Notes under the pieces: generated by a model
Databases searched by the model: none
Told to the model about the DNA's origin: nothing
The model's input: the letters and a program-made list of their open reading frames with translations, nothing else
Made by a program: the position numbers and the translations under genes
From: Brevundimonas sp. PAMC22021
GTDB lineage: Bacteria > Pseudomonadota > Alphaproteobacteria > Caulobacterales > Caulobacteraceae
Assembly (NCBI RefSeq): GCF_019443405.1
Contig: NZ_CP080376.1
Coordinates: 1,612,001-1,676,000, forward strand
Reading direction: 5' to 3'
DNA length: 64,000 nucleotides
Shown: in pieces, positions 7,714-64,000 of the stretch
Numbering within the stretch: position 1 is the first letter of the stretch
How the letters are laid out: each line of letters opens with the position of its first letter

Positions 7714-8121
7714 CTAGAGGTCCTGCGACAGGCGAACGGCGCCGGCGGCCAGCAGGGCGAACAGGGCCCCGGCCGTGATCCAGAACATCTGCATGCCGCC
7801 CGTGCTCATCAGGTCGATGGACGACAGACCCAAGCCGTCCAGCCCAGACTGCACCGCGCCCTGAGCCGTGACGCCGGCCGCCTGCACCCCTTGCGTCAGG
7901 GCGGTCGTGTCGGTCTCGGCGCCGCTGAAGTTCAGGTGCACGCTTTCGCGCACCGCGACGCATCCGCCCACAACGCCGGCCAGGGTCAGGGCAAAGGCCC
8001 TCGCCCGCGACGAGCGTGTCAGTCGCGTCTCGACTTGAGCCGCGAACAGTTCAGTGTCGACGAGCGGAGGCTGTCGGGCGAACAGGCGCTCGATGGCGGG
8101 ATCGAATTCATCAGCCGACAT
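7714..8121 (-). CDS. Putative membrane anti-sigma partner of the upstream ECF factor
   Basis: A 135-residue protein if translation starts at the ATG at 8119-8121. The start was chosen because it overlaps the sigma factor gene by 11 bases; a longer reading to 8193 would run far into that gene. The N-terminus is a short cytoplasmic stretch (DEFDPAIERLFARQPP). A weak membrane segment lies near residues 37-55 and a clear one near the C-terminus (FWITAGALFALLAAGAV). Position and topology fit an anti-sigma factor, but no zinc-finger (ZAS) motif is seen, so the role is inferred from context. Confidence 0.55.
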   Translation of the reverse strand: MSADEFDPAIERLFARQPPLVDTELFAAQVETRLTRSSRARAFALTLAGVVGGCVAVRESVHLNFSGAETDTTALTQGVQAAGVTAQGAVQSGLDGLGLSSIDLMSTGGMQMFWITAGALFALLAAGAVRLSQDL

Positions 8122-8668
8122 GCGCCGACCTCCCGAGTGCATCCGTTCGCGGATCGAGCCGCGCGCGGAGTTTATCCAGACCACGTTTGACATGAGATTT
8201 CACCGTTCCGAGCGGCAGATTCATGGCCGAGGCGATCTCCAGGTGACTGAGCCCCGCGCCGTGGCACAGGGAGACGCACAGGCGCTCGGTCTCGCTCAGC
8301 GTCTTCAGCGCCTCGTCCAGGTCCATCAGCCCGGCGGTGTCGAACGTCGGCGCCGCGTCCTCCGTCTCGACCTCGGCGACGTAGCGCGCTTCGTGCGCCC
8401 GGCGCTTCAGGTACAAGCGCGCGGCGATCCGCTTAATCCAGCCGACGAAAGGGCCCTCAGCGCGGAACTCGCCGCACCGCTGGAACGCCTGCAAGAAGGC
8501 GTCCTGGGCGATGTCGTCCGCCAGCGACGCTTCGGCCCCCATCCGGCGCAGCAGCCCCCGCACCGCCGAGCCATGACGGCGCACCAGTTCGCCGAACTCT
8601 CGCCTGCCGCCCGCCGCCGCCTGGGCGGCGAGCTCGTTGTCGTGCAGGTTACGCAACGGCTGTTTCAT
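8111..8668 (-). CDS. ECF-type RNA polymerase sigma factor
   Basis: A 185-residue sigma-70 family factor with only regions 2 and 4. Region 2 includes ADDIAQDAFLQAFQR and the -10 recognition helix area GWIKRIAARLYLKRR. Region 4 contains LSETERLCVSLCHGAGLSH and the DNA-binding helix-turn-helix LPLGTVKSHVKRGLDKLR. It is co-transcribed and overlaps with a small membrane protein that probably holds it inactive. The regulon cannot be read from the sequence. Confidence 0.92.
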   Translation of the reverse strand: MKQPLRNLHDNELAAQAAAGGRREFGELVRRHGSAVRGLLRRMGAEASLADDIAQDAFLQAFQRCGEFRAEGPFVGWIKRIAARLYLKRRAHEARYVAEVETEDAAPTFDTAGLMDLDEALKTLSETERLCVSLCHGAGLSHLEIASAMNLPLGTVKSHVKRGLDKLRARLDPRTDALGRSAHVG

Positions 8669-52813: not shown

Positions 52814-53293
52814 ATTACACCACCGGTTGTCCGACTCCCTCCGTACACGGCGGGTTCGCGCCCGGGCAACGTCGATGAATTGCGGGTCGCCCGCAGGTTT
52901 CTTGCGGGACGGAAGCCTCCCCGCCGGTTGAACCGCAGACAGGTCGCGACTACAGCGGGGCCGTCGGGCGCCGCGAGATAGGCGCACAGCCGGAGCCGGG
53001 GTTCGTCGCTGACGGAGGCGGCGCTGCGCGCTGAAGTAACGGGCCTCGTTCGCAGAGGATTCCAACGCCCGACCCCTCCCGCTTGCGTCGGGATTCCGTT
53101 TGATTCATGCTCGCCAGGCCGACCTACGCGTCGGCAGGGGCTTGGAATCCCCTGTGCGATATCTTCTTCGACGACCCACGCGCGGCGTGGCTGTCGCTGA
53201 CCGGATCACCGTGTCAGGCGTGTGAGCGCCTGCGCCCGGCTGTCCGTTCGCGCCCCGGATTCCAGCCGTCTGAATTGCGGTCGGAGAGGCAGG
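52814..53293. other. Gap upstream of the lasso-type sigma gene
   Basis: About 480 bases without a supported gene. A minus-strand frame continues from the LuxR-like gene but looks like noise. The promoters of the divergent LuxR-like and FecI-like genes must lie here. Confidence 0.45.
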
Positions 53294-53779
53294 GTGAGCG
53301 AAGCGAAGCCATTGCAAGCGGAGGTCGGCGGCGGCCTGGACGGCCTGTACCGCCGCTACGCTGCGTGGTTGAACCGTCGCCTCCGGGCTCGGATCGGTCC
53401 GGACGATGCGGCCGACGTCGTGCAGGAAACCTATATCCGCATCGCGCCCTTCGCCGACGGCGGGATCGCCCATCCCCGCGCCTTCCTGCTCCGGGTCGCC
53501 CTCAATCTGGTGCGCGATGACGCCAAACATAGGCGCCGTCGGCCAAGCGACGCCGACCTCCAATCCCCCGAATCCGAAGGCGCGCCCCAGTTCGATCAGG
53601 TTCTGCTCGCCCAGATCATACGATCCATGCCGCAACTCTACCGCGACGTCTTCGTCTTGAGCCGCTTTGACGGTATGACGTATCCCGAGATCGCCAAGGA
53701 GCTCGAGATCAGCGTCAAGACGGTGGAGTGGCGGATGTCCAAGGCGCTCGACTACTGCGCGCTGCGGCTGGACCTTTAG
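53294..53779 (+). CDS. FecI-like ECF sigma factor
   Basis: A 161-residue FecI-type sigma factor: region 2 PDDAADVVQETYIRIAPFAD and region 4 DGMTYPEIAKELEISVKTVE. GTG at 53294 is chosen, after a GGAGAGG stretch. It starts the FecI-FecR-TonB receptor set that directs cell-surface signalling. Confidence 0.9.
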   Translation: MSEAKPLQAEVGGGLDGLYRRYAAWLNRRLRARIGPDDAADVVQETYIRIAPFADGGIAHPRAFLLRVALNLVRDDAKHRRRRPSDADLQSPESEGAPQFDQVLLAQIIRSMPQLYRDVFVLSRFDGMTYPEIAKELEISVKTVEWRMSKALDYCALRLDL

Positions 53780-53789
53780 GCGAAGACTG

Positions 53790-54797
53790 ATGACGACCGA
53801 GGCTGACGCCGACATCAGACGCAAGGAGACCGCCGACTGGTTCGCGCGGCTCAACCAGCGCAAGGTCACCACGGCGGACGTGAAGGCGTTCAGCGCCTGG
53901 CGACGGGACTCCAGGAACGCCGAGAGTTTCGACCGCATGCAGGCGATGTGGGACGCGAGTCGCACCCTGGCCGACCAACCCGAGATGGCCGCGCTTTCGG
54001 CGGACGCCCGGACCCGCGCCGCCTCCCGCCGCAGGGCCCGCCCCCGCCTGCTCGGTGTTCTCGCCCCCGTCGGCGCCGTCGGCGCCGCGATCGCGGCCCT
54101 GTCCGTGGGCTGGTGGTTGTGGTCAGCGCAGCAGCCGACCCCCTATCTCACCCAGGTCGGCGAACGCCGCGTCGTTCAACTGGCCGACGGCTCGACGATC
54201 ACGCTCGACACGGACTCCAGGATCGACGTTCGCCTGACCGGGGGCCGCCGGCTGGTCACCCTCGTCACGGGCCAGGCCCGGTTCGACGTTGAGGGCGACC
54301 CGGACCGGCCGTTCGTCGTCAAGGCCGGCGACACCGAGGTTACGGCCTTGGGCACGAGCTTCGACGTCCGGCGCTTCGGGACGGGCGCACGCGTGGTGCT
54401 TGTCGAGGGCCGGGTCGATGTGCGCGAGGGCGAACAGGCGGACCGGCGCTGGTCGATGCAGCCGGGACAGCAGCTGGTGACGTCCGTCCCCCGACCCCGG
54501 GTGGTCACGACCGATCTACCCGCGGCGACCAGCTGGGCGGCGGGCCGACTGACCTTCCACGAAACGCCGATCGGCGTCGCCGTGGCTGAGGTCAACCGCT
54601 ACACCCGTCATCCGATCGAACTGCGCGCCGGGGACATTTCCTCCATCCGGGTGAGCGGGGTGTTCGACGCCGGCGACGTCGAGGGTTTCGTGGCGGCGCT
54701 GCGCGACCTCTATCCGCTCACCGCCGAACGGGCCGAGGACGGTCATGTGGTGCTTTCGGGCGCATCGAAAAATAATCTGACCCCGGACTTAGGGTAA
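53790..54797 (+). CDS. FecR-family anti-sigma regulator
   Basis: A 335-residue FecR protein: cytoplasmic N-terminal domain (ADWFARLNQRKVTTADVKAF), one membrane helix at about residues 88-108 (LGVLAPVGAVGAAIAALSVG), and a periplasmic FecR domain (QTVG-like ITLDTDSRIDVRL...; AGDTEVTALGTSFDVR) with a C-terminal STN-like portion. It passes the receptor signal to the FecI-like factor. It lies 10 bases after that gene. Confidence 0.92.
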   Translation: MTTEADADIRRKETADWFARLNQRKVTTADVKAFSAWRRDSRNAESFDRMQAMWDASRTLADQPEMAALSADARTRAASRRRARPRLLGVLAPVGAVGAAIAALSVGWWLWSAQQPTPYLTQVGERRVVQLADGSTITLDTDSRIDVRLTGGRRLVTLVTGQARFDVEGDPDRPFVVKAGDTEVTALGTSFDVRRFGTGARVVLVEGRVDVREGEQADRRWSMQPGQQLVTSVPRPRVVTTDLPAATSWAAGRLTFHETPIGVAVAEVNRYTRHPIELRAGDISSIRVSGVFDAGDVEGFVAALRDLYPLTAERAEDGHVVLSGASKNNLTPDLG

Positions 54798-54861
54798 GGC
54801 CCGCGACCGGTCGTCTCCTCCCGGTCCCGCATCAATGCGGATAAGAAACCGGGGGAGACAC

Positions 54862-57819
54862 ATGAGACAGGGCTTCACTTCAACGGCGCTCGCGGCGCTT
54901 CTGATGGCGTCGGCGACGCCGGTCTGCGCCCAGCAGGCCGAGTCCGCGCGTCGCTTCGACATCCCGGCAGGGCCGCTGGCGCGCACCCTCCCCGCCTTCG
55001 CTCGCCAGAGCGGTCAGCAGATCCTCTATCCGAGCGCCCTGGTGGCGGACCGGGCCTCGGCGTCACTTTCGGGCGACTATTCCGTCGAGACGGCGCTGGC
55101 GCTGCTCCTGCGCGACACCGGCCTGACCTATCGACGGAGCCGGCCCAATGTGTTCGTCCTCATCGACCCGTCGCAACGCGCCGAGGCCGAACAGCTGGAA
55201 GCCGTCCAGCTGGACGAGGTCGTCGTCACGGGCAGCCTGCTGCGCGGGGTGCTCGACGGCCCCTCGCCGGTGGTGGTCGTCAGCCGCGACCAGATTGATC
55301 GCGACGGCCACGCGACCGTCGCTCAAGCCCTGGCGGCGCTGCCGCAGAATTTCGCAGGCACCGCCAATGACGCCACCCTCAGCAACGGCGGCGACCGCAG
55401 CGGCACCAACGCCAACTACTCCAATGGGGTGAACCTGCGCGGCCTCGGCAGCGACGCGACCCTGGTGTTGGTCAACGGCCGGCGGATCGCCGGGACCGGC
55501 TCCAAGGGCGATTTCGCCGACGTCTCGTCGATTCCGACGGCCGCCGTTGAGCGGATCGACGTCCTGCTCGACGGAGCCTCGGCTCTCTACGGCGCCGACG
55601 CCGTGGGCGGGGTCATCAATGTGGTCCTGCGTGACGACTACGACGGCGCCGAGACCAGAGCGCGCTACGGCACGGCCGCCGACGGCGCCTTCTCCGATGT
55701 CCTGTTCGCCCAGACGATCGGGCGGCGATGGGGCAGCGGCAGTCTTATGGGCGTCTACGAATACCAGGACCGCGAAGCCCTGCCCGCGGCCGAACGCGAT
55801 CGCGCGGGTGACGCCGATCTGCGCCGCTTCGGCGGATCGGATCGCCGACTGAACTACAGCAACCCCGGCAACATCATGGTGATCGACCCGGCGTCGGGCG
55901 CCTATGTCTCCGCCTTCGCCATCCCGGGCGGTCAGGACGGGACCAACCTGGCTCCGGGCGATTTCCTGCCGGGGCAGGAGAACCGCACCAATCAGCGGTT
56001 CGGCATGAACGTCTTTCCGCGGCAGACCCGCCATATCGCCTATCTGGCGGGACGGCAGGATCTCGGCGGCCGGCTGACCCTGTCCGGCGACGCGCGCTGG
56101 GCCCGGCGCGACTATGAGACCCGATCGTCGCCGATCGCCACGCTGCTGACCGTCAACCGCAATAACCCCTTCTTCGAATCCCCGACGGGCGCGAATTCGC
56201 ACCTGATCGCCTATTCCTTCGCCGGTCAGACGCCCAACCCGGTGCAATCCGGGGAGGTCGAGACCCTGTCCGCGACGATCGGCGCCGATCTCGACCTGGG
56301 CGGCTCGTGGCGGTTGTCGAGCTATCTCGCCTACGGCGCGGAAGAAGCCGGCTTCGGGTCGTCGGGCACGCTGCAATCGACCTATCTGCGCGAGGCGCTG
56401 GGCGCCTTGGCGGACAATCCGGCCACGGGCTACAGCGCCGCCAGGGACGGCTTTCTCAATCCGTTCGGGGCGGGGAACGTCAATCCGCAGGCCGCGCTGG
56501 ACTTCATCACGGGCGGCTGGACCCATCTGTGGAGCGAGAGCCGCATCACCACGGCGAACGTGATGCTGGACGGCGACCTGTTGGAGCTGCCCGGCGGCCC
56601 GTTGAAACTCGCGGTCGGGGCGGCGCTCCGGCGCGAGAATTTCGACCGCAAGGTGGACAGTTTCACCTCCGGCATCGCGCCCGTCCTGGGCGCGCTGAAC
56701 GCCAGCGAGCGCGACGTGGCGGCGGTCTATGCGGAGGCGCGGATTCCCCTGTTCGGGGCCGGCAACAGCCGTCCGGGACTGGAACGGCTCGAACTGTCGC
56801 TGGCGGCCCGGTTCGAGGACTATGGCGATGTCGGTCAGACGACGAGCCCCAAGGTCGGTCTGGTCTGGGAACCCATGGCGGGCGCGCGCCTGCGGGCCAA
56901 CTACGGCCGGTCCTTCCGGGCGCCGGCCCTGCGCGAGGTGAATGACGCGGCGACGGCCAGTCCCTCGATCCTGCCCCGCGGACCCAACCAGATCCTGACC
57001 ATGATCCTGTATGGCGGCAATCCGGATCTGGAGCCCGAAACCGCCGACACCTGGACGGTTGGGGGCGATTTCGAGCCCGCCTCGGTTCAGGGTCTCCGGA
57101 TCAGCGTCAACGCCTTCCGCACGGATTTCGAGAACCGGATCGGCCAACCGGCTCTGGAGAACATCCTCACCGCGCTGAGCGACACCACCCTGAGCCCGTT
57201 CGTTCGGATCATCGATCCGGCCACCAACGCCCAGGATCGCGCCGACATGCAGGCGATCCTCGATTTGCCGACCACCAACCTGCGTGACCTGTTCCCGGCC
57301 ACCGATTACGGCGCCATCGTCGACGCCCGCTACGTCAACACCGCCAGCGTCCAGGTCCAGGGCGCCGACCTCACGGTCGCCTACGCCTTCGCGGTCGGCC
57401 CTGACGCCTTCGATCTGACCAGCAGCCTGACCTGGCTGGAGCGCTTCGACGCCCGGGCCACGCCCACCTCCCCCGTGGTCTCCCAGCTGGATCGACCGAA
57501 CTATCCCGTGGGCCTGCGGGGTCGCACCCATCTCAGCTGGACGAGGGGCCCGCTCACCCTCGGCGGAGCGGTGGATCATGTCTCCGACTACGCCGACACC
57601 TCCGGGCGTCGCATCGGCTCCTGGACCACGGCCGATCTTCAGGTGCGCTATGCGCCGGAGACGGGTCCGATCGCCGGGACGGCCGTCGCCCTGACGATCC
57701 AGAACCTCTTTGACCGTGATCCGCCCTTCTACGACGCGCCCGAAGGCGTGGCCTATGACGCGGCGAACTCGGACGTCATCGGCCGCTACGTCTCGCTCCA
57801 GCTGACCCGGAGCTGGTGA
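54862..57819 (+). CDS. STN-domain TonB-dependent receptor of the lasso locus
   Basis: A 985-residue outer-membrane receptor. After the signal peptide it has an N-terminal secretin/TonB short domain (RFDIPAGPLARTLPAFARQS, residues about 32-105), then a plug with VVVTGSLLRG and VLVNGRR, and a barrel ending in LQLTRSW. The start at 54862 follows GGGGGAG. In Caulobacterales lasso clusters such receptors are thought to take up the peptide for recycling. Its stop overlaps the isopeptidase ATG. Confidence 0.93.
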   Translation: MRQGFTSTALAALLMASATPVCAQQAESARRFDIPAGPLARTLPAFARQSGQQILYPSALVADRASASLSGDYSVETALALLLRDTGLTYRRSRPNVFVLIDPSQRAEAEQLEAVQLDEVVVTGSLLRGVLDGPSPVVVVSRDQIDRDGHATVAQALAALPQNFAGTANDATLSNGGDRSGTNANYSNGVNLRGLGSDATLVLVNGRRIAGTGSKGDFADVSSIPTAAVERIDVLLDGASALYGADAVGGVINVVLRDDYDGAETRARYGTAADGAFSDVLFAQTIGRRWGSGSLMGVYEYQDREALPAAERDRAGDADLRRFGGSDRRLNYSNPGNIMVIDPASGAYVSAFAIPGGQDGTNLAPGDFLPGQENRTNQRFGMNVFPRQTRHIAYLAGRQDLGGRLTLSGDARWARRDYETRSSPIATLLTVNRNNPFFESPTGANSHLIAYSFAGQTPNPVQSGEVETLSATIGADLDLGGSWRLSSYLAYGAEEAGFGSSGTLQSTYLREALGALADNPATGYSAARDGFLNPFGAGNVNPQAALDFITGGWTHLWSESRITTANVMLDGDLLELPGGPLKLAVGAALRRENFDRKVDSFTSGIAPVLGALNASERDVAAVYAEARIPLFGAGNSRPGLERLELSLAARFEDYGDVGQTTSPKVGLVWEPMAGARLRANYGRSFRAPALREVNDAATASPSILPRGPNQILTMILYGGNPDLEPETADTWTVGGDFEPASVQGLRISVNAFRTDFENRIGQPALENILTALSDTTLSPFVRIIDPATNAQDRADMQAILDLPTTNLRDLFPATDYGAIVDARYVNTASVQVQGADLTVAYAFAVGPDAFDLTSSLTWLERFDARATPTSPVVSQLDRPNYPVGLRGRTHLSWTRGPLTLGGAVDHVSDYADTSGRRIGSWTTADLQVRYAPETGPIAGTAVALTIQNLFDRDPPFYDAPEGVAYDAANSDVIGRYVSLQLTRSW

Positions 57820-60326
57820 TGCACCGCACAGTTCTGATGCTCGGCCTTGCGGCCGGGCTCGCCTTCGCTTGTCCCGCGCTCGCCCAGTCCTCCGGCCCTT
57901 TCACCATCGACGCCCTGCTGCGTCAGGAGAGTCTCGGCGATGCGCGCGTCAGTCCGGACGGCCGCTGGATCGCGCTGGAACGCCGGGCGCGCTACGACCG
58001 CGCGCCCTCCTACAAGCTGTCCAGGGACACCGACCGCCTCCTCAGCGCCGTCCAGATCGTGGACGCGCGCTCTGGCGAGGTCGTCCGCACCCTGGAGACC
58101 CCGGACCATTCCGCCGGCTATACGGCTGGACGGTTCTCGCCCGACGGTCGCCGGCTGATCGTCTACGAGCTGACGCCGGACAGCTGGCGGCTGGGCGTCC
58201 TGTCGCTCGAGACCGGCGCGGTCCGTTGGACCGCGCTCGCGCCGGAAGACCCGCGGCTCGGGCTGACGGCGCTCTGGCGAACCGTCGACGAACTGCTCGT
58301 CGTCGTGCAGCCGGGCGGACAGCTGCCCGAGATCGCCCGCACCGGCTTCCAGGCCCAGGACCGTATCGCGGCGCTCTGGGCGGCGACAGCGTCCGGCCGA
58401 TCCGTCGGCGGCACCTTCATTCCGAGCGGCTCGGCCCGCGACACCCGCGAACATCGCCCACCGTTGTCGCTCCTCCGCCTGGATGTGCGTAGCGGCGCGC
58501 AGACGCCGCTCGCCGCGGGTGCGATCTTCGATCTCGCCCTGTCGCCGGACGGCGCCCGTATCGCCGTGCTGGAGGACCGCGAGGATCTGCAGCCCGATCC
58601 CGATCGCCCGGTCCTGGTCGGCGACCCGATCCGCCGACGCGCCCTGCGCCTGATCGACATCGACACCGGCGCCGAAACCCGGATCGACCCCGCTCTCGAT
58701 TACGGCCCCTATCTGATGGCGTGGAGCCCCGACAGCCGTCGGCTTCTCGCCTTCGCGCGCCACGTGGGCCAAGCCGGCTTCGAGCGGTCCGGCGCCTATG
58801 TCGCGATCGGGCTGGACGGCTTGGTCTCCAGGTTCGCGGACAAGCCGGCGACGGAGCGAAGCCCGTGGGACGAACCGGTGGCGCTGGGCGGCTGGCTCGG
58901 CGACACGCCCGTGCTCCGGGTCCTGGATGACGCCGGCGTCGCCCAATGGCGCGTGCCGGGCGGTCTCGCGCCGATCCCGGCCCAGACGGGCGATCGGCTC
59001 GTCGACTGGAACGGCGAGACCCGTATCGAGCGCGGCGACCGGCTTCTGTCCCTGAACGGAGGCCCGGACGTCGCCGGCCGGATCAGCGACCTCGGCGAGG
59101 CTCGCGACGCCGGCTTCCGCGCCGCCTATGTGCGCGAGGCGACCCCCGGCCGCACCCTGATCAGCGACGGCTGCGCCAAGGCCGCGATCGACGCGGCGCC
59201 GGTCTGCGTCTCGCCGCTGGAACCGGATGAAACCCGCGTCGCCTCCAGCCCTGACGGCGCCTTCGTCGTCGCCCGTCAGGACTCCGCCGACGGATCCGCC
59301 CGTTTCCGGCTCCATCGCGCCGACGCCGGCCTGACCCTGGCGGAGATCAACCTCGATCGCGCGACCTTCGACTGGGGCGAAATCATCGAAGTTGCGCACA
59401 CCGGTCCTGCCGGCCAGGCGCTGAAGAGCTGGCTGCTCCTGCCGCCGGGATTGGCGGAAGGGGTCAAGGCGCCGCTGGTCGTCGAGGTCTACCCCGGCCG
59501 CGTCTCGTCGCGTCCGCCGTCACCGCTCACGCGCCGCTCCGCCATGCTCCAGAACAATCCGGCGGTCATCGCCGGGGGCGGCTATGCGGTTCTCTATGTC
59601 AGCCTGCCGAACCCGCCGGATGGGCGCTGGTCCGGCGCGGCCCTTGCCGCGCAGATCGACGCCATCGCCGATGCGGCCGGCGCCACTGGCCGGGTCCGGG
59701 CCGACCGCTACGCCCTGCTCGGTCACAGCTACGGGGCCTTCAATGTGCTCAACGCGGCGCCCCACAGCGACCGGGTCGCGGCGTTGATCGCCTCCAACGG
59801 CTACGCCGACCTGATCAGCGCCTTCGAACTGCCGCCCTTCTTCCGCTCCGCACCCGACGAGGGCGTGCCCATCGGCCAGCTGTCCGGCTGGGCGGAGACA
59901 GGCCAGGCGGCGATCGGCGCCTTCCCGGCGGACGCCGCCCGCTATGTCGAGATGAGCCCGCTGTTCTCGGCGGCGGACCTGCGGGCGCCGGCCCTGCTGA
60001 TCGAAAGCGATCTGGAGCGGCCGCGCATGGGCAAGTTGTTCGGCGTCCTCTACCGACTAAACCGGGACGCGGCTCTGCTGACCTACTATGGCGAGGGCCA
60101 TGTGCTCGCCAGCCCCGGCAACCTGCGCGACCTACACGCCCACATCCTCGACTGGCTGGCGCGCTACCTCGGTCCGGCGACGCGCGATCCGACCCTCCCA
60201 GTGGCGCGCCCAGGCCTCCAGGACGGCGGCCAGCAACGGGGCGTTGGCGCCCTCGCGCCAGAGCAGGCGGGCCGGGTCGAGATCAACCTCGAGCGTCGCC
60301 CGGTCGAGGACGCCCTGGGCCGCTAG
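57819..60326 (+). CDS. Lasso peptide isopeptidase-like S9 serine hydrolase
   Basis: An 835-residue secreted prolyl-oligopeptidase-family enzyme: signal peptide, N-terminal propeller (about residues 25-520) and C-terminal alpha/beta hydrolase. The catalytic triad is readable: Ser637 in GHSYGAF, Asp731 in IESDLERPR and His761 in GEGHVLAS. Lasso isopeptidases (AtxE type) open the macrolactam ring of imported lasso peptides and always lie next to such TonB receptors. Its last 195 bases overlap the end of the cyclase gene on the other strand. Confidence 0.9.
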   Translation: MHRTVLMLGLAAGLAFACPALAQSSGPFTIDALLRQESLGDARVSPDGRWIALERRARYDRAPSYKLSRDTDRLLSAVQIVDARSGEVVRTLETPDHSAGYTAGRFSPDGRRLIVYELTPDSWRLGVLSLETGAVRWTALAPEDPRLGLTALWRTVDELLVVVQPGGQLPEIARTGFQAQDRIAALWAATASGRSVGGTFIPSGSARDTREHRPPLSLLRLDVRSGAQTPLAAGAIFDLALSPDGARIAVLEDREDLQPDPDRPVLVGDPIRRRALRLIDIDTGAETRIDPALDYGPYLMAWSPDSRRLLAFARHVGQAGFERSGAYVAIGLDGLVSRFADKPATERSPWDEPVALGGWLGDTPVLRVLDDAGVAQWRVPGGLAPIPAQTGDRLVDWNGETRIERGDRLLSLNGGPDVAGRISDLGEARDAGFRAAYVREATPGRTLISDGCAKAAIDAAPVCVSPLEPDETRVASSPDGAFVVARQDSADGSARFRLHRADAGLTLAEINLDRATFDWGEIIEVAHTGPAGQALKSWLLLPPGLAEGVKAPLVVEVYPGRVSSRPPSPLTRRSAMLQNNPAVIAGGGYAVLYVSLPNPPDGRWSGAALAAQIDAIADAAGATGRVRADRYALLGHSYGAFNVLNAAPHSDRVAALIASNGYADLISAFELPPFFRSAPDEGVPIGQLSGWAETGQAAIGAFPADAARYVEMSPLFSAADLRAPALLIESDLERPRMGKLFGVLYRLNRDAALLTYYGEGHVLASPGNLRDLHAHILDWLARYLGPATRDPTLPVARPGLQDGGQQRGVGALAPEQAGRVEINLERRPVEDALGR

Positions 60327-61871
60327 TCGTCCCTCCAGGAGGAAGGCGGCGAGCGCCGGCGCGCTGTCCCGTACGACCTGGCCGTAGAAGTGGCTCAGAT
60401 CGCCCTTGTCCCGCCGTTCGGCGATCAAGGGCGGCAGGCGCTCCGAGAAGGCCAGGCGGGCCAGGCCCCGGTCCCGTTCGCCCAGGGTCAGCCGGTCGGA
60501 CGGCACGCCGAGGCAGTGTTCGACGACCGGCTGACTGAGGAAGGGATTGAGCAGCGGGGCCTGGCGCGCCCTCAGACAGTCCGTCCAGAACAGCTGACAG
60601 TTCACGAACCGCTCCAGCTGCCCCCGCTTGGCGGGCGCAAGCTCGGCCGCGTCGTCGAGCCACCGGTGACGCGGCCCCGATCCGGTCTGCGTCCGGCCGC
60701 GCACCGCCAGTCGGCCGACGGTCCAGGCGGAGTGGCGGGTCCAGCGGCCCACCGCCGCCAGATAGGCCGGATTGAGGGCGCGCAAGCCCTGGCGGCGGAA
60801 CCGGTCGGCGGCGACGAGGGGATCCGGGGCCTGGAAGAAGACGCTGTCGCCGCCCTGTCCCGTCAACAGGCCGTCGGCGCCCAGCGCCGCCAGTCGGCCC
60901 GCGGCGTGCCGATCATAGGCCGGGTCCACCCCTTGGAGGGCGGGACGGAGTCCGGAGGCCAGAGTGGTGAAGTCCGCGTCGGAGATCGCCTCGACCGGCT
61001 TGCGAACGGTCTCGAGCGGAACGCCGCTCAGCGCCGCGGCCGCCTCCGCGTAACGACGCTCGTCGCCTTCGGCGTCGTCGCCATAGTAGTTGATGAAGAC
61101 CGCGCGCTCGGCGTGCCCCGTCGCCCTCAGGCTTCCCGCCACGATGGCCGAGTCCAGTCCCCCGGAGAGTTCGGAGACCACCCGGCGACGCGAGCGCATG
61201 GTGCGGTCGATGGTGCGATCGACGACCCGCACGAGAGCGTCCGGGGCGTCGTCGGCGCCCCGACGGACGAAGTCGGCCGGCCGCCACAGGGGTTCGTCGG
61301 GAAGGTCTTGGTCCGGCCGGCTCCAGCAACCGGCGCCGACCGGCGTCAAACCTTGGAGGGGCAATCCGTCGGTCAGAAGCGAAGGCGTCGCCAGAAGGGC
61401 GCCCAGTTGTGGCCAGTCGATCGCGAGCGTGTCCGGCAAGACGGCGTCGAGCGCCGGCGGAGGACAGTCGGTCACCAAGGTGACGGGACCTCGCCGCCAC
61501 CACACCACATCCACCGCTCCGGTCGGATCCCGCACCAGGTTCAGGTGGCCGTCGCGATCTCGCCAGACCATCAGATAGGCGCCCCAGCCTTCGCTCATGA
61601 GGCCCGCGCCGAGCGGGCGTCCTTCGGGGAAGCGGCCTGCGATCGCGGAAGGATGCGCGCCCTCCCCGCGCCATTCCCCGATCAGGGCATGGGCGCGATG
61701 AACCTGCGCGACGGGCCATGGGAAACGCGGTCCGGTCAGAATCCTCAGACCGAAGCCGTCGAGCCGCAGGGTCCAGCCGCTCCGCAGTAGCGCCGCCAGG
61801 GCCGCCTCGACGGCGGGATCGCGGGCGTCCGCGGCGTCGGCGACGAGGAGATAGCCGGCGTCGCCGCTCAT
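60132..61871 (-). CDS. Lasso cyclase (Asn-synthetase-like, McjC type)
   Basis: A 579-residue asparagine-synthetase-like enzyme. In lasso pathways this C protein adenylates the side chain of Asp/Glu at core position 7-9 and closes the ring with the N-terminal amine. The ATP-pyrophosphatase loop SELSGGLDSAIVAG is clear near residue 235. The N-terminal glutaminase-like domain lacks the nucleophile Cys, as in McjC. Its ATG overlaps the stop of the B gene by 4 bases. Confidence 0.9.
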   Translation of the reverse strand: MSGDAGYLLVADAADARDPAVEAALAALLRSGWTLRLDGFGLRILTGPRFPWPVAQVHRAHALIGEWRGEGAHPSAIAGRFPEGRPLGAGLMSEGWGAYLMVWRDRDGHLNLVRDPTGAVDVVWWRRGPVTLVTDCPPPALDAVLPDTLAIDWPQLGALLATPSLLTDGLPLQGLTPVGAGCWSRPDQDLPDEPLWRPADFVRRGADDAPDALVRVVDRTIDRTMRSRRRVVSELSGGLDSAIVAGSLRATGHAERAVFINYYGDDAEGDERRYAEAAAALSGVPLETVRKPVEAISDADFTTLASGLRPALQGVDPAYDRHAAGRLAALGADGLLTGQGGDSVFFQAPDPLVAADRFRRQGLRALNPAYLAAVGRWTRHSAWTVGRLAVRGRTQTGSGPRHRWLDDAAELAPAKRGQLERFVNCQLFWTDCLRARQAPLLNPFLSQPVVEHCLGVPSDRLTLGERDRGLARLAFSERLPPLIAERRDKGDLSHFYGQVVRDSAPALAAFLLEGRLAAQGVLDRATLEVDLDPARLLWREGANAPLLAAVLEAWARHWEGRIARRRTEVARQPVEDVGV

Positions 61872-62560
61872 CGCACCATGATCGGCGTGTAGGCCACGAG
61901 CCGCTCCACATCATCGTTGAGACAGACCTCGCCGACCTGCACCCAGCAATGGGCGGTGAACGGACACAGGCGCACGCCGAACACCCAGTCGGCCCGAAGC
62001 CCCTGACGCCGGAGAAAACGGACCAGCAGCGCCGACCGGACGAGGCATTCCCCCTCGATCGGCAAATAGGCCATCAGGGTCCAGAACCGCCGACCGGCCT
62101 CGATCGCGGCCATAGGGTCGTCACGAGGCTCGGCGCCGCCCAGACTGACATAAGGCGACAGGCCGGCCCCGCGCCGGGCGGCCCGCACCTCGTGCATCGC
62201 GCAGAGCCCCGGGATCAGGTCCCGCATCAGGTCCAGACGCCCTCCGGCGTGGATCACGGAACGCACCGGGCGAGCCGGCGGAACCCGGGGCTTCGGCGAA
62301 GGCTCCGCTCCGATCAACCCCGCCGCGATCAGGGCCGAGACGGGGCCGTTCATCCGGACGAGACCGCCTCCCGCGAGCCGCCGGCACAGGGCGGCGCCGT
62401 CCGGCAGGCAATGATAACCGTCGCCGCGCACGTCGAGCAGGACGGCGTCACCACCGACGCAGGCGTGGTGAACGTCCGGCGCGAAATACAGGCGCACGGC
62501 AGGGGCGGCGGCGTCGCCGCCGTCGCCCCCCGTCGGAGCCGTCGCGCTCAGGCGGTCCAA
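61868..62560 (-). CDS. Lasso leader protease, B protein (McjB type)
   Basis: A 230-residue fused B protein. The N-terminal RRE (PqqD-like leader-binding) part reads VRLYFAPDVHHACVGGDAVL, and the C-terminal transglutaminase-like protease has Cys in YLPIEGECLVRSALL, His in PFTAHCWVQVG and Asp in LNDDVERLVAYTP. It removes the leader from the precursor. The start is taken as TTG at 62560, overlapping the end of the precursor gene by 13 bases; no ATG or GTG with a site is found in range. Confidence 0.85.
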   Translation of the reverse strand: MDRLSATAPTGGDGGDAAAPAVRLYFAPDVHHACVGGDAVLLDVRGDGYHCLPDGAALCRRLAGGGLVRMNGPVSALIAAGLIGAEPSPKPRVPPARPVRSVIHAGGRLDLMRDLIPGLCAMHEVRAARRGAGLSPYVSLGGAEPRDDPMAAIEAGRRFWTLMAYLPIEGECLVRSALLVRFLRRQGLRADWVFGVRLCPFTAHCWVQVGEVCLNDDVERLVAYTPIMVR

Positions 62561-62805
62561 CGCTCGACCGGGATCAGCTCGCGATTGCCGCTGGGCTGGT
62601 CCGCCCGCGTCTGCTCCGCGGCCCCGCCGATGCGGGCGACCGAGGGATCGACGTAGGTGTAGATCGGGTTGAGTTCCCGATTGTGCCCCGGGCCGTCGGC
62701 GCGGGTCTGCTCCATCGCGGAACCGAGCCCGACGATCTGGGTCGTGGACGCGTCGTCGTAGAAATAGAGCGGGATCAGCTCCATCTTTTCGACGCCGCCG
62801 CCGGC
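62541..62805 (-). repeat. Tandem leader-core units in the lasso precursor
   Basis: Core starts lie at residues 21, 56 and 88, spaced 35 and 32 residues apart, and the Thr-Arg before each is at 19-20, 54-55 and 86-87. Conserved positions are Thr(-2), Arg(-1), Ala1, Glu9, Leu10, Pro12 and a hydrophobic residue at 13. Cores 1 and 2 continue to Tyr, Asp and Ser residues; core 3 is shorter and ends the protein. Confidence 0.8.
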
Positions 62806-62865
62806 GCGGGTCAGTGCGCTGGCGCAGCCGAGCCCGATCAGGCCCGGAAGGGGATTGGTCTTCAT
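62548..62865 (-). CDS. Lasso precursor with three candidate core peptides
   Basis: A 105-residue precursor with an excellent AAGGAGG site before ATG at 62865. A leader ends in GLIGLGCASALTR (residues 8-20). Three units follow, each beginning with Ala and having Glu at the ninth residue: AGGGVEKME (21-29), ADGPGHNRE (56-64) and ADQPSGNRE (88-96). Each is preceded by Thr-Arg, so Thr occupies core position -2 as in known lasso precursors. After each Glu comes Leu-x-Pro. Units 2 and 3 are separated from the one before by linkers resembling the leader (IVGLGSAMEQTR; ARIGGAAEQTR). It is followed by the B and C genes. Confidence 0.85.
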   Translation of the reverse strand: MKTNPLPGLIGLGCASALTRAGGGVEKMELIPLYFYDDASTTQIVGLGSAMEQTRADGPGHNRELNPIYTYVDPSVARIGGAAEQTRADQPSGNRELIPVERWTA

Positions 62866-62936: not shown

Positions 62937-63548
62937 CTATATCTGTCCTATACTTTCGACAGATTGTCGCATGACTGCCACGACGGCGGTGGCGAGCGCC
63001 GATCTCTCTCGATGATGCAGATCGACCTCGCGCCGCAACGCGACGAGCGCGCCGTCCGCGACGTGGCGTTCGACACCGACGATCCAGGCCAGGTCCGGCG
63101 GCGCCAATTCGGCCGAGACGATCCGAATGGGTCGAAGCCGCAGCGTCAGGCGCCAATGGGTTTGCGCCAAGACCGCCCGCCCCGGCGACCGGACGAAGGC
63201 GGCGTAGAAGCGCTCCTCGCTCCTCTCGCCGACGCTCTGGAGCGCCACAGTCGTTCCGGCGGCGTCAAGAAGGTCGATCGCCAAATGCACCAGCCGCCGG
63301 TGGATTTCGTAGAGATCAACGATGTCGTCGGCGCTGGGACTGGGGGCGTAGTAGCCACGCCCGGGGCGATGTTCGATCAGACCTTCGCCGGCGAGCCGGG
63401 CCAGGGCCTCGCGCACGGGCGTCTGGGACAGTTCCAGTTCGGCGGCCAAGGCGGTGGCGACCAACGGCTCTCCCCAGCCGAAGCGGCCTGATCCGGCGAA
63501 CGCCGCCAAGGCGGTCAGGGCGTCGTTATAGGGGTCTCGCGATCGCAT
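62937..63548 (-). CDS. GntR-family (FCD) regulator of the lasso locus
   Basis: A 203-residue GntR regulator: winged helix ALAAELELSQTPVREALARL, then GEGLIEHRPGRGYYAPSPSA and a helical FCD ligand domain. The start at 63548 gives a standard N-terminus. It lies 71 bases upstream of the precursor gene on the same strand and probably controls the precursor-B-C operon. Confidence 0.88.
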   Translation of the reverse strand: MRSRDPYNDALTALAAFAGSGRFGWGEPLVATALAAELELSQTPVREALARLAGEGLIEHRPGRGYYAPSPSADDIVDLYEIHRRLVHLAIDLLDAAGTTVALQSVGERSEERFYAAFVRSPGRAVLAQTHWRLTLRLRPIRIVSAELAPPDLAWIVGVERHVADGALVALRREVDLHHRERSALATAVVAVMRQSVESIGQI

Positions 63549-63804
63549 CACGACCAACCCCCAGCGAGGGCGCTCAAGCCGCGACCCACGCCGAGTTCGG
63601 GTTGCGATGAGAATGCGACCATGTAATCGGCGACTTCCGCAAAGATTTCGCGTGCGACCCGCAGATATTTTGCGCAAATACACAAGGTTTATAAACCCGT
63701 TTGTTTCCCACCTTTCATTTGATGCACGGTTGCTTCATTTTTCAACCAGTAGGGGTGCGGTGCGCGCGAGTCGCGGTGCTCGGAAACGGAGTTAGAGCGA
63801 CGTC

Positions 63805-64000
63805 ATGGAGAGCGCCGACCGTCAGTCCCAGAGCGAGACCCTGTCCACCGCCCTTCGGCTGATCCGCACCCATCGTCGGCTGCGGGCGGCGGATGTCGCC
63901 AAGTCCATGAACATGGCGCTGCGCTCCTACGAGCATTTCGAGTCCGGCGGTGGACGCATCAACATCGAGCGCGTCCATCGTTTCGCCGAGGTCACGGACA
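63805..64000 (+). CDS. XRE-type helix-turn-helix protein, cut by window end
   Basis: The first 65 codons of a protein with the Cro/C1-type helix-turn-helix ALRLIRTHRRLRAADVAKSM followed by NMALRSYEHFESGGG. The rest lies outside the window. It is divergent from the GntR gene across an AT-rich gap of about 256 bases that must hold both promoters. Confidence 0.7.
   Translation, partial: MESADRQSQSETLSTALRLIRTHRRLRAADVAKSMNMALRSYEHFESGGGRINIERVHRFAEVTD

Follow-up and report, generated by a model that had tools for sequence, protein, structure and literature searches.

The window, by which we mean the whole stretch of 64,000 nucleotides that was analysed, contains a lasso peptide cluster in which a precursor gene (gene A) lies directly upstream of the gene for a fused RRE-protease (B), followed by the gene for a putative cyclase (C). 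Gene A (62548..62865, minus strand) starts with ATG, has an AAGGAGG ribosome site upstream and encodes 105 amino acids which, based on the unit motifs in the open reading frame and on the homologs, read as a lasso precursor with three cores. An earlier note had given this reading frame without a strand; the frame is real and lies on the minus strand. Its layout is a leader, then TR followed by AGGGVEKMELIPLYFY, a linker, TR followed by ADGPGHNRELNPIYTY, a second linker and TR followed by ADQPSGNRELIPVERWTA. Leader 1 (residues 1-20, 62806..62865) ends in Thr-Arg and shows the pattern L-12, L-9, G-8, A-6, T-2, R-1. It is followed, all on the minus strand, by core 1 (residues 1-16 at 62758..62805), a spacer and internal leader 2 (62701..62757), core 2 (residues 1-16 at 62653..62700), a spacer and internal leader 3 (62605..62652) and core 3 (18 residues, 62551..62604); both internal leaders end in Thr-Arg as well. 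Directly 3' of the gene A stop there is a G+C-rich hairpin (62485..62552, minus strand; -40.4 kcal/mol, z -2.5). Such hairpins follow the stop of multi-core A genes in 15 of 15 distinct stretches from 15 loci (-28.3 to -40.2 kcal/mol, z -1.3 to -4.4), repeated stretches and those containing N having been left out, and the ratio of precursor to enzymes may be set at this point.

The B gene (61868..62560, minus strand) has an uncertain start, either TTG at 62560, which overlaps the gene A stop, or GTG at 62497. The protein was assigned as a fused RRE and B2 leader protease from its matches to PF13471 and to the lasso B2 protease model NF033537 (71.4 bits, cut-off 33), from its predicted structure and from the Cys-His-Asp set C167, H199 and D211, which is invariant in 41 sequences. 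The three best structural matches of its predicted N-terminal domain are lasso B1 proteins that were solved with the leader bound, and this domain is predicted to be a leader-binding B1/RRE domain. The putative lasso cyclase C (60132..61871, minus strand) is of the asparagine-synthase type (PF00733, 78.9 bits, cut-off 21) and stays below the cut-offs of the curated cyclase models, with 35.4 bits against 525 for NF033535 and 64 bits against 300 for NF033561.

Upstream of gene A lies a GntR-family regulator found by a model match (62937..63683, minus strand), which adjoins A at the multi-core loci, and a helix-turn-helix type protein, named by reading of its frame, runs off the window (63805..64000, plus strand) and has matches at loci L003 and L065-L068. 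On the other side of the cluster, all on the plus strand, are an S9 peptidase (57816..60326; PF00326) that resembles the lasso isopeptidases and scores 53.8 bits against the AtxE2-type isopeptidase model NF033523, far under the cut-off of 400, a TonB-dependent receptor (54835..57819) and a FecR-type anti-sigma regulator (53790..54797), both from model matches, and a FecI-like sigma factor (53222..53779) named by reading of the frame. The helix-turn-helix, S9, receptor and FecR genes adjoin the cluster in L065, L066 and L068 and also stand beside it in L003, where the S9 and receptor genes match in two pieces each. In L067 the S9 match is some 6 kb further off, and receptor and FecR matches were not found in the fetched stretch. 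The S9 gene and the cyclase gene, on opposite strands, overlap tail to tail over 195 nt (60132-60326), and their matches overlap likewise in L065, L066 and L068; the L066 stretch as cut contained a stop.

The three units of gene A follow one pattern. The motif TRAx7ELxP occurs in three copies, at residues 19, 54 and 86, and in 200,000 shuffles of the gene A residues a single copy was obtained in 2 shuffles and two copies in none, by which a chance repeat of the units was ruled out. The three segments with Thr-Arg, Ala1, Glu9 and Leu-x-Pro that the earlier note had described are exact in the reading frame. Ala1 and Glu9 stand at the ends of the three putative rings (AGGGVEKME, ADGPGHNRE and ADQPSGNRE), and both this nine-residue ring and Ala1 presumably resemble those of Caulobacterales peptides such as caulonodin VI. 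Thr-Arg precedes all three cores, which includes Thr-2, a feature of lasso biosynthesis; Thr-2 of lasso leaders is described as important in the accessible text of PMC10368454. The leader-like linkers before cores 2 and 3, also pointed out earlier, hold up in detail: the stretches IVGLGSAMEQTR and VARIGGAAEQTR agree with leader 1, LIGLGCASALTR, at G-8, A-6, T-2 and R-1. The cores themselves differ, core 2 being identical to core 1 at 7/16 residues and to core 3 at 8/16. The gene has several conserved cores in one reading frame together with a repeated recognition sequence, as expected of a multi-core RiPP precursor, and departs from the usual single core of a lasso precursor. Since one core per precursor is customary and not defining, the three-core gene marks a variant of the lasso precursor.

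The distribution of such genes was followed by a profile search of 131 Brevundimonas genomes, from which 112 lasso B2 loci were fetched. A multi-core precursor is found at 21 of these 112 loci, seven with three cores and 14 with two, and the gene order GntR-A-B-C is found at the loci of all 21 genomes. Five of the three-core loci are of the window's 105-residue type (G000 and G023, which are identical, G064 and G066 with one change, and G067 with 93% identity) and two are of a second type (G097 and G079). The other multi-core types occur in 16 further Brevundimonas genomes and in one genome of another genus, G235, which has a two-core precursor and is the one such genome that emerged from 390 of the family, where up to 14-15 first-look candidates per genome were scored. 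A single-genome artefact was ruled out by the presence of the window type in five genomes and of other multi-core types elsewhere. Together with protein database searches, 68 distinct precursors with at least two units were obtained from 81 distinct sequences, after 13 fragments, odd reading frames or single-core forms were set aside. The variation in unit number across relatives, which the earlier note had proposed to check, does exist, with two or three units at the 21 loci and in the 68 precursors.

Among the remaining Brevundimonas B2 loci, 48 of the 112 have only single-core genes by the first motif, a few of these frames being doubtful, and 29 more have them by a looser motif (counted from the listing). 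At 14 of the 112 a precursor was not recognised, three of these loci (L118, L140 and L154) being cut by the contig end. Apart from the window locus, the same genome carries an ordinary single-core lasso locus (L002/L155, about 138,300-140,100), which has a B and a C of its own. Asp stands right after Thr-Arg (LTRD...) in the single-core precursors of some two dozen of the loci L071-L161 (L077, L101 and L127 among them); these sit in another B clade, and Asp would be unusual as the first core residue if the cut falls after Thr-Arg. In the wider profile searches of 390 family and 385 class genomes at most 14-15 first-look candidates per genome were scored. Among these candidates, weaker family-level matches outside Brevundimonas were seen in 11 genomes besides G235; they look single-core by their short matched range, though a stop lies within some of the matches. 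Among the 385 genomes of the class sample the profile matched, within the up to 14-15 candidates scored per genome, only the window's own genome. The B2 model matched 33 of the 385, own genome included, and the 29 loci newly fetched yielded almost no recognisable lasso-like precursor, so that little can be said from this sample on multi-core lassos elsewhere.

Another question is whether all units of these precursors are maintained. The unit recogniser required G-8, Thr-2 and a small first core residue, and the constancy of these, including that of Thr-2 in 141/141 units of the 68 precursors, is therefore partly by construction, while Arg-1, Glu9 and position 16 were left free. Arg-1 is kept in all 141 units, with all 73 internal sites included. 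Glu9 is present in 139 of 141 (68/68 first, 5/5 middle and 66/68 last units), the two last units without it being that of P0156, which has Lys, and a truncated one. At position 16, all 73 first and middle cores have Tyr; of the 68 last cores, 66 have Trp or Tyr and the remaining two are truncated. From uncorrected proportions in six groups of relatives (19 sequences), pN/pS comes to 0.20 both for internal leaders and for last cores and to 0.23 for internal cores, with 0.35 for spacers and 0.56 for the first leader; the value of 2.1 for the C-terminal tails comes from few changes. As far as sequences can tell, these ratios show similar purifying selection on internal cores, internal leaders and last cores, a signal that comes mostly from two-core relatives, few sites being different among precursors of the window type. 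Where relatives have two or three units, these are retained, which suggests that no unit is a dead copy. The earlier note held that decay of all units but one would speak against it; such decay was looked for and not found, Glu9 and pN/pS being alike across units, and the reading of three working cores behind internal leaders gains support at the sequence level from the kept Glu9 and the purifying selection.

Damage was seen in single cases, which do not amount to a family-wide decay of one unit position. Besides the loss of Glu9 in P0156, the database protein P0004, known from one 4834-base contig, is a copy of the window precursor minus 19 residues, which are exactly the spacer and the internal leader before core 2, so that core 2 stands directly after core 1; this could be an allele or an assembly error. 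In B. albigilva (NZ_CP097298.1, locus L003, about 7950-8170), a locus counted among the 14 with two cores, a frame break separates the first leader from its core and the second unit is intact; the protein database holds an intact close homolog of this broken precursor (P0011). These damaged relatives, together with a unit number of two or three, could be taken as signs of a recent duplication without function, which would make the internal units dead copies or artefacts of assembly. However, the units of one gene have diverged from each other (the 7/16 and 8/16 identities given above), the multi-core state is spread over a deep B clade, in which 22 loci from two genera were assessed, and the internal units are under purifying selection; we regard a functionless duplication as very improbable.

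A different option is that a single unit matures, most likely the last or the first, and that the others serve as an extended leader or an inert tail. To our knowledge, known lasso precursors carry one core each, which counts in favour of this option, as do the internal leaders, which are shorter than leader 1, and the P0004 relative, which has lost one of them. Yet Glu9 and the aromatic residue at position 16, for which no role is apparent other than in a lasso core, are kept in first, middle and last units alike, and by pN/pS the constraint on internal cores equals that on last cores. Maturation of one unit only is thus an unlikely explanation.

The leaders were compared in 64 of the 68 precursors, four truncated or odd members being left out, which gave 69 internal leaders. 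All 69 have A-6; L or I stands at -9 in 67 of them, and 67 likewise have a hydrophobic residue at -12, where Ala was counted as hydrophobic. The internal leaders are without about the first six residues of leader 1, and the Y/WxxP motif of discrete RREs is missing from nearly all leaders of the multi-core precursors: P-14 is found in 3/69 internal and 27/64 first leaders, and Tyr at -17 in 6/69 internal leaders. The short internal leaders and the missing YxxP are unusual as judged from the sequences and count against the three-core reading, as do the single losses in P0156, P0004 and B. albigilva, a B gene of G044 that lacks a precursor, the few differing sites within the window type, and the cyclase and isopeptidase scores under the curated cut-offs. 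In the available part of one source, YxxPxV at -17 to -12 is the consensus for discrete lasso RREs (PMC13381572). Leader 3 of the window, together with Tyr16 of core 2, does spell YxxPxV at -17 to -12, which may be chance because Pro-14 occurs in just 3/69 internal leaders. If this motif is used, core 3 would of necessity be excised before core 2 folds. Arg at core position 22, a possible trimming site, is common (42/69) but not universal, so that mature lengths are not fixed by it.

Based on these data, we suggest with a probability of roughly three in four that the gene encodes a polyprotein-like precursor, in which every Thr-Arg would mark a cleavage site for B, and three different nine-residue rings, each from Ala1 to Glu9, would be closed by C. 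The RRE domain would bind the common leader signature (hydrophobic -12, L or I -9, G-8, A-6, T-2, R-1), the B2 domain would cleave each TR-A site after Arg-1 and the cyclase would form each isopeptide bond, while the aromatic residue at core position 16 may act as the plug that holds the thread. After release, cores 1 and 2 would either still carry the following leader as a long tail, being 35 and 32 residues in length, or be trimmed to about 23 residues by other proteases; core 3 would come out as an 18-residue lasso. One may also imagine a single multi-ring product, in which B cuts before core 1 only and the rings form within one long chain, or the pieces remain linked. The linkers are under purifying selection too (0.35 for spacers, 0.20 for internal leaders), which would fit such a product as well. 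Yet the ring of a lasso is closed on a free N-terminal amine, which cores 2 and 3 gain only through cleavage, and R-1 is kept at all 73 internal sites, which makes a multi-ring product hardly to be expected.

How the polyprotein-like precursor arose can be approached from the B proteins. A midpoint-rooted tree was built with 108 rows, 107 from the 112 Brevundimonas loci and one from G235. All 22 multi-core rows fall in one clade of 25 rows (support 100/93); of the other three rows, two are truncated at contig ends and one is a B that lacks a precursor. The latter (L136) is a B gene of this clade in G044 with no precursor upstream, and G044 has a complete two-core locus elsewhere. Among the recognised precursors of the 112 Brevundimonas B2 loci, no multi-unit reading frame was found outside this single clade. 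The pair G017/G089 joins the clade with support 96/92, and whether it is its sister depends on the root. Each of these two genomes (L062/L063 and L087/L088) has two single-core genes in one frame, separated by 12 nt, and TGA, AGGAG and ATG stand between their cores. For the other adjacent A genes that the survey recognised, the gap is 56 nt or more. The pair resembles the window in its related B, its Ala1-Glu9 cores and its leaders with LGxA...TR, but it consists of two genes with a stop, a ribosome site and a start between them, whereas the window has one gene. The distance from Ala1 to Ala1 is 47 codons in the pair versus 32-36 in 67 of the 68 first multi-core units, so two such genes would be fused if about 11 codons, which contain the stop, the ribosome site, the start and the tip of the leader, were deleted. 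An in-frame pair this close in a neighbouring clade suggests an origin by gene fusion, and we infer from these sequences that multi-core precursors probably arose by in-frame fusion of neighbouring single-core genes. Three two-core loci (L106, L116 and L119) have an extra separate single-core gene between A and B, so that fused and separate cores there share one B. The three-core types fall in two B sub-clades, and their middle unit may be common to both or may have arisen twice; the middle core of the window is nearest to the middle core of the other three-core lineage or to some first cores, and the leader of its middle unit is nearest to last-unit leaders.

Taken further, we give a somewhat better than even chance to a family of lasso polyproteins that came from one in-frame fusion in Caulobacteraceae, leading to two and then three cores, in which a B protein that reads internal leaders frees every core, so that the products would be made in a fixed ratio, some with tails longer than in any known lasso. 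Lasso peptides are treated as one precursor with one core, and genome-mining tools that expect this can overlook products. From a conserved multi-core family one would learn that internal leaders can be used by the lasso protease and its RRE, and that a long C-terminal extension on a core does not keep the cyclase from folding it. The step from tandem genes to their fusion would be a readable step of RiPP evolution, and the natural multi-core gene could serve as a model for producing several lassos from a single gene. In the open-access literature, which set the scope of our search and includes look-ups by term in the reviews PMC13352647, PMC8498205 and PMC7549694 (subscription papers lying beyond it), a multi-core lasso precursor was not found. 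Multi-core precursors may thus be new among lasso peptides; the principle is known from other RiPPs, and an earlier description in the subscription literature is possible. Pandonodin, the lasso to compare for tail length, is said to have one core per precursor.

The closest known systems, as far as the accessible text of PMC7549694 describes them, are the proteobacterial clusters of caulosegnins I-III, caulonodins I-VII and astexins-2/-3, which have several separate single-core A genes. As would be the case in the window, several lasso peptides are made there with one B and one C, and B is fused, as is reported for proteobacteria in the part available of PMC5067487. In contrast, each core in those clusters has its own gene, whereas the window type has two or three cores per gene behind internal leaders. 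From the accessible portions of the sources, several cores on one precursor are known in cyanobactins and plant RiPPs (PMC10349150) and in pheganomycin (PMC9484694), but those systems use other chemistry and enzymes, and in the window it is the lasso leader that is repeated, with the next leader standing after each inner core. With regard to the tail, pandonodin, with 33 residues of which 18 form the tail, is called the longest-tailed lasso in the available text of a 2026 review (PMC13352647). Core 1 of the window would likewise be a lasso with a very long tail, and if untrimmed it would have 35 residues against the 33 of pandonodin, its tail being the remnant of the next leader.
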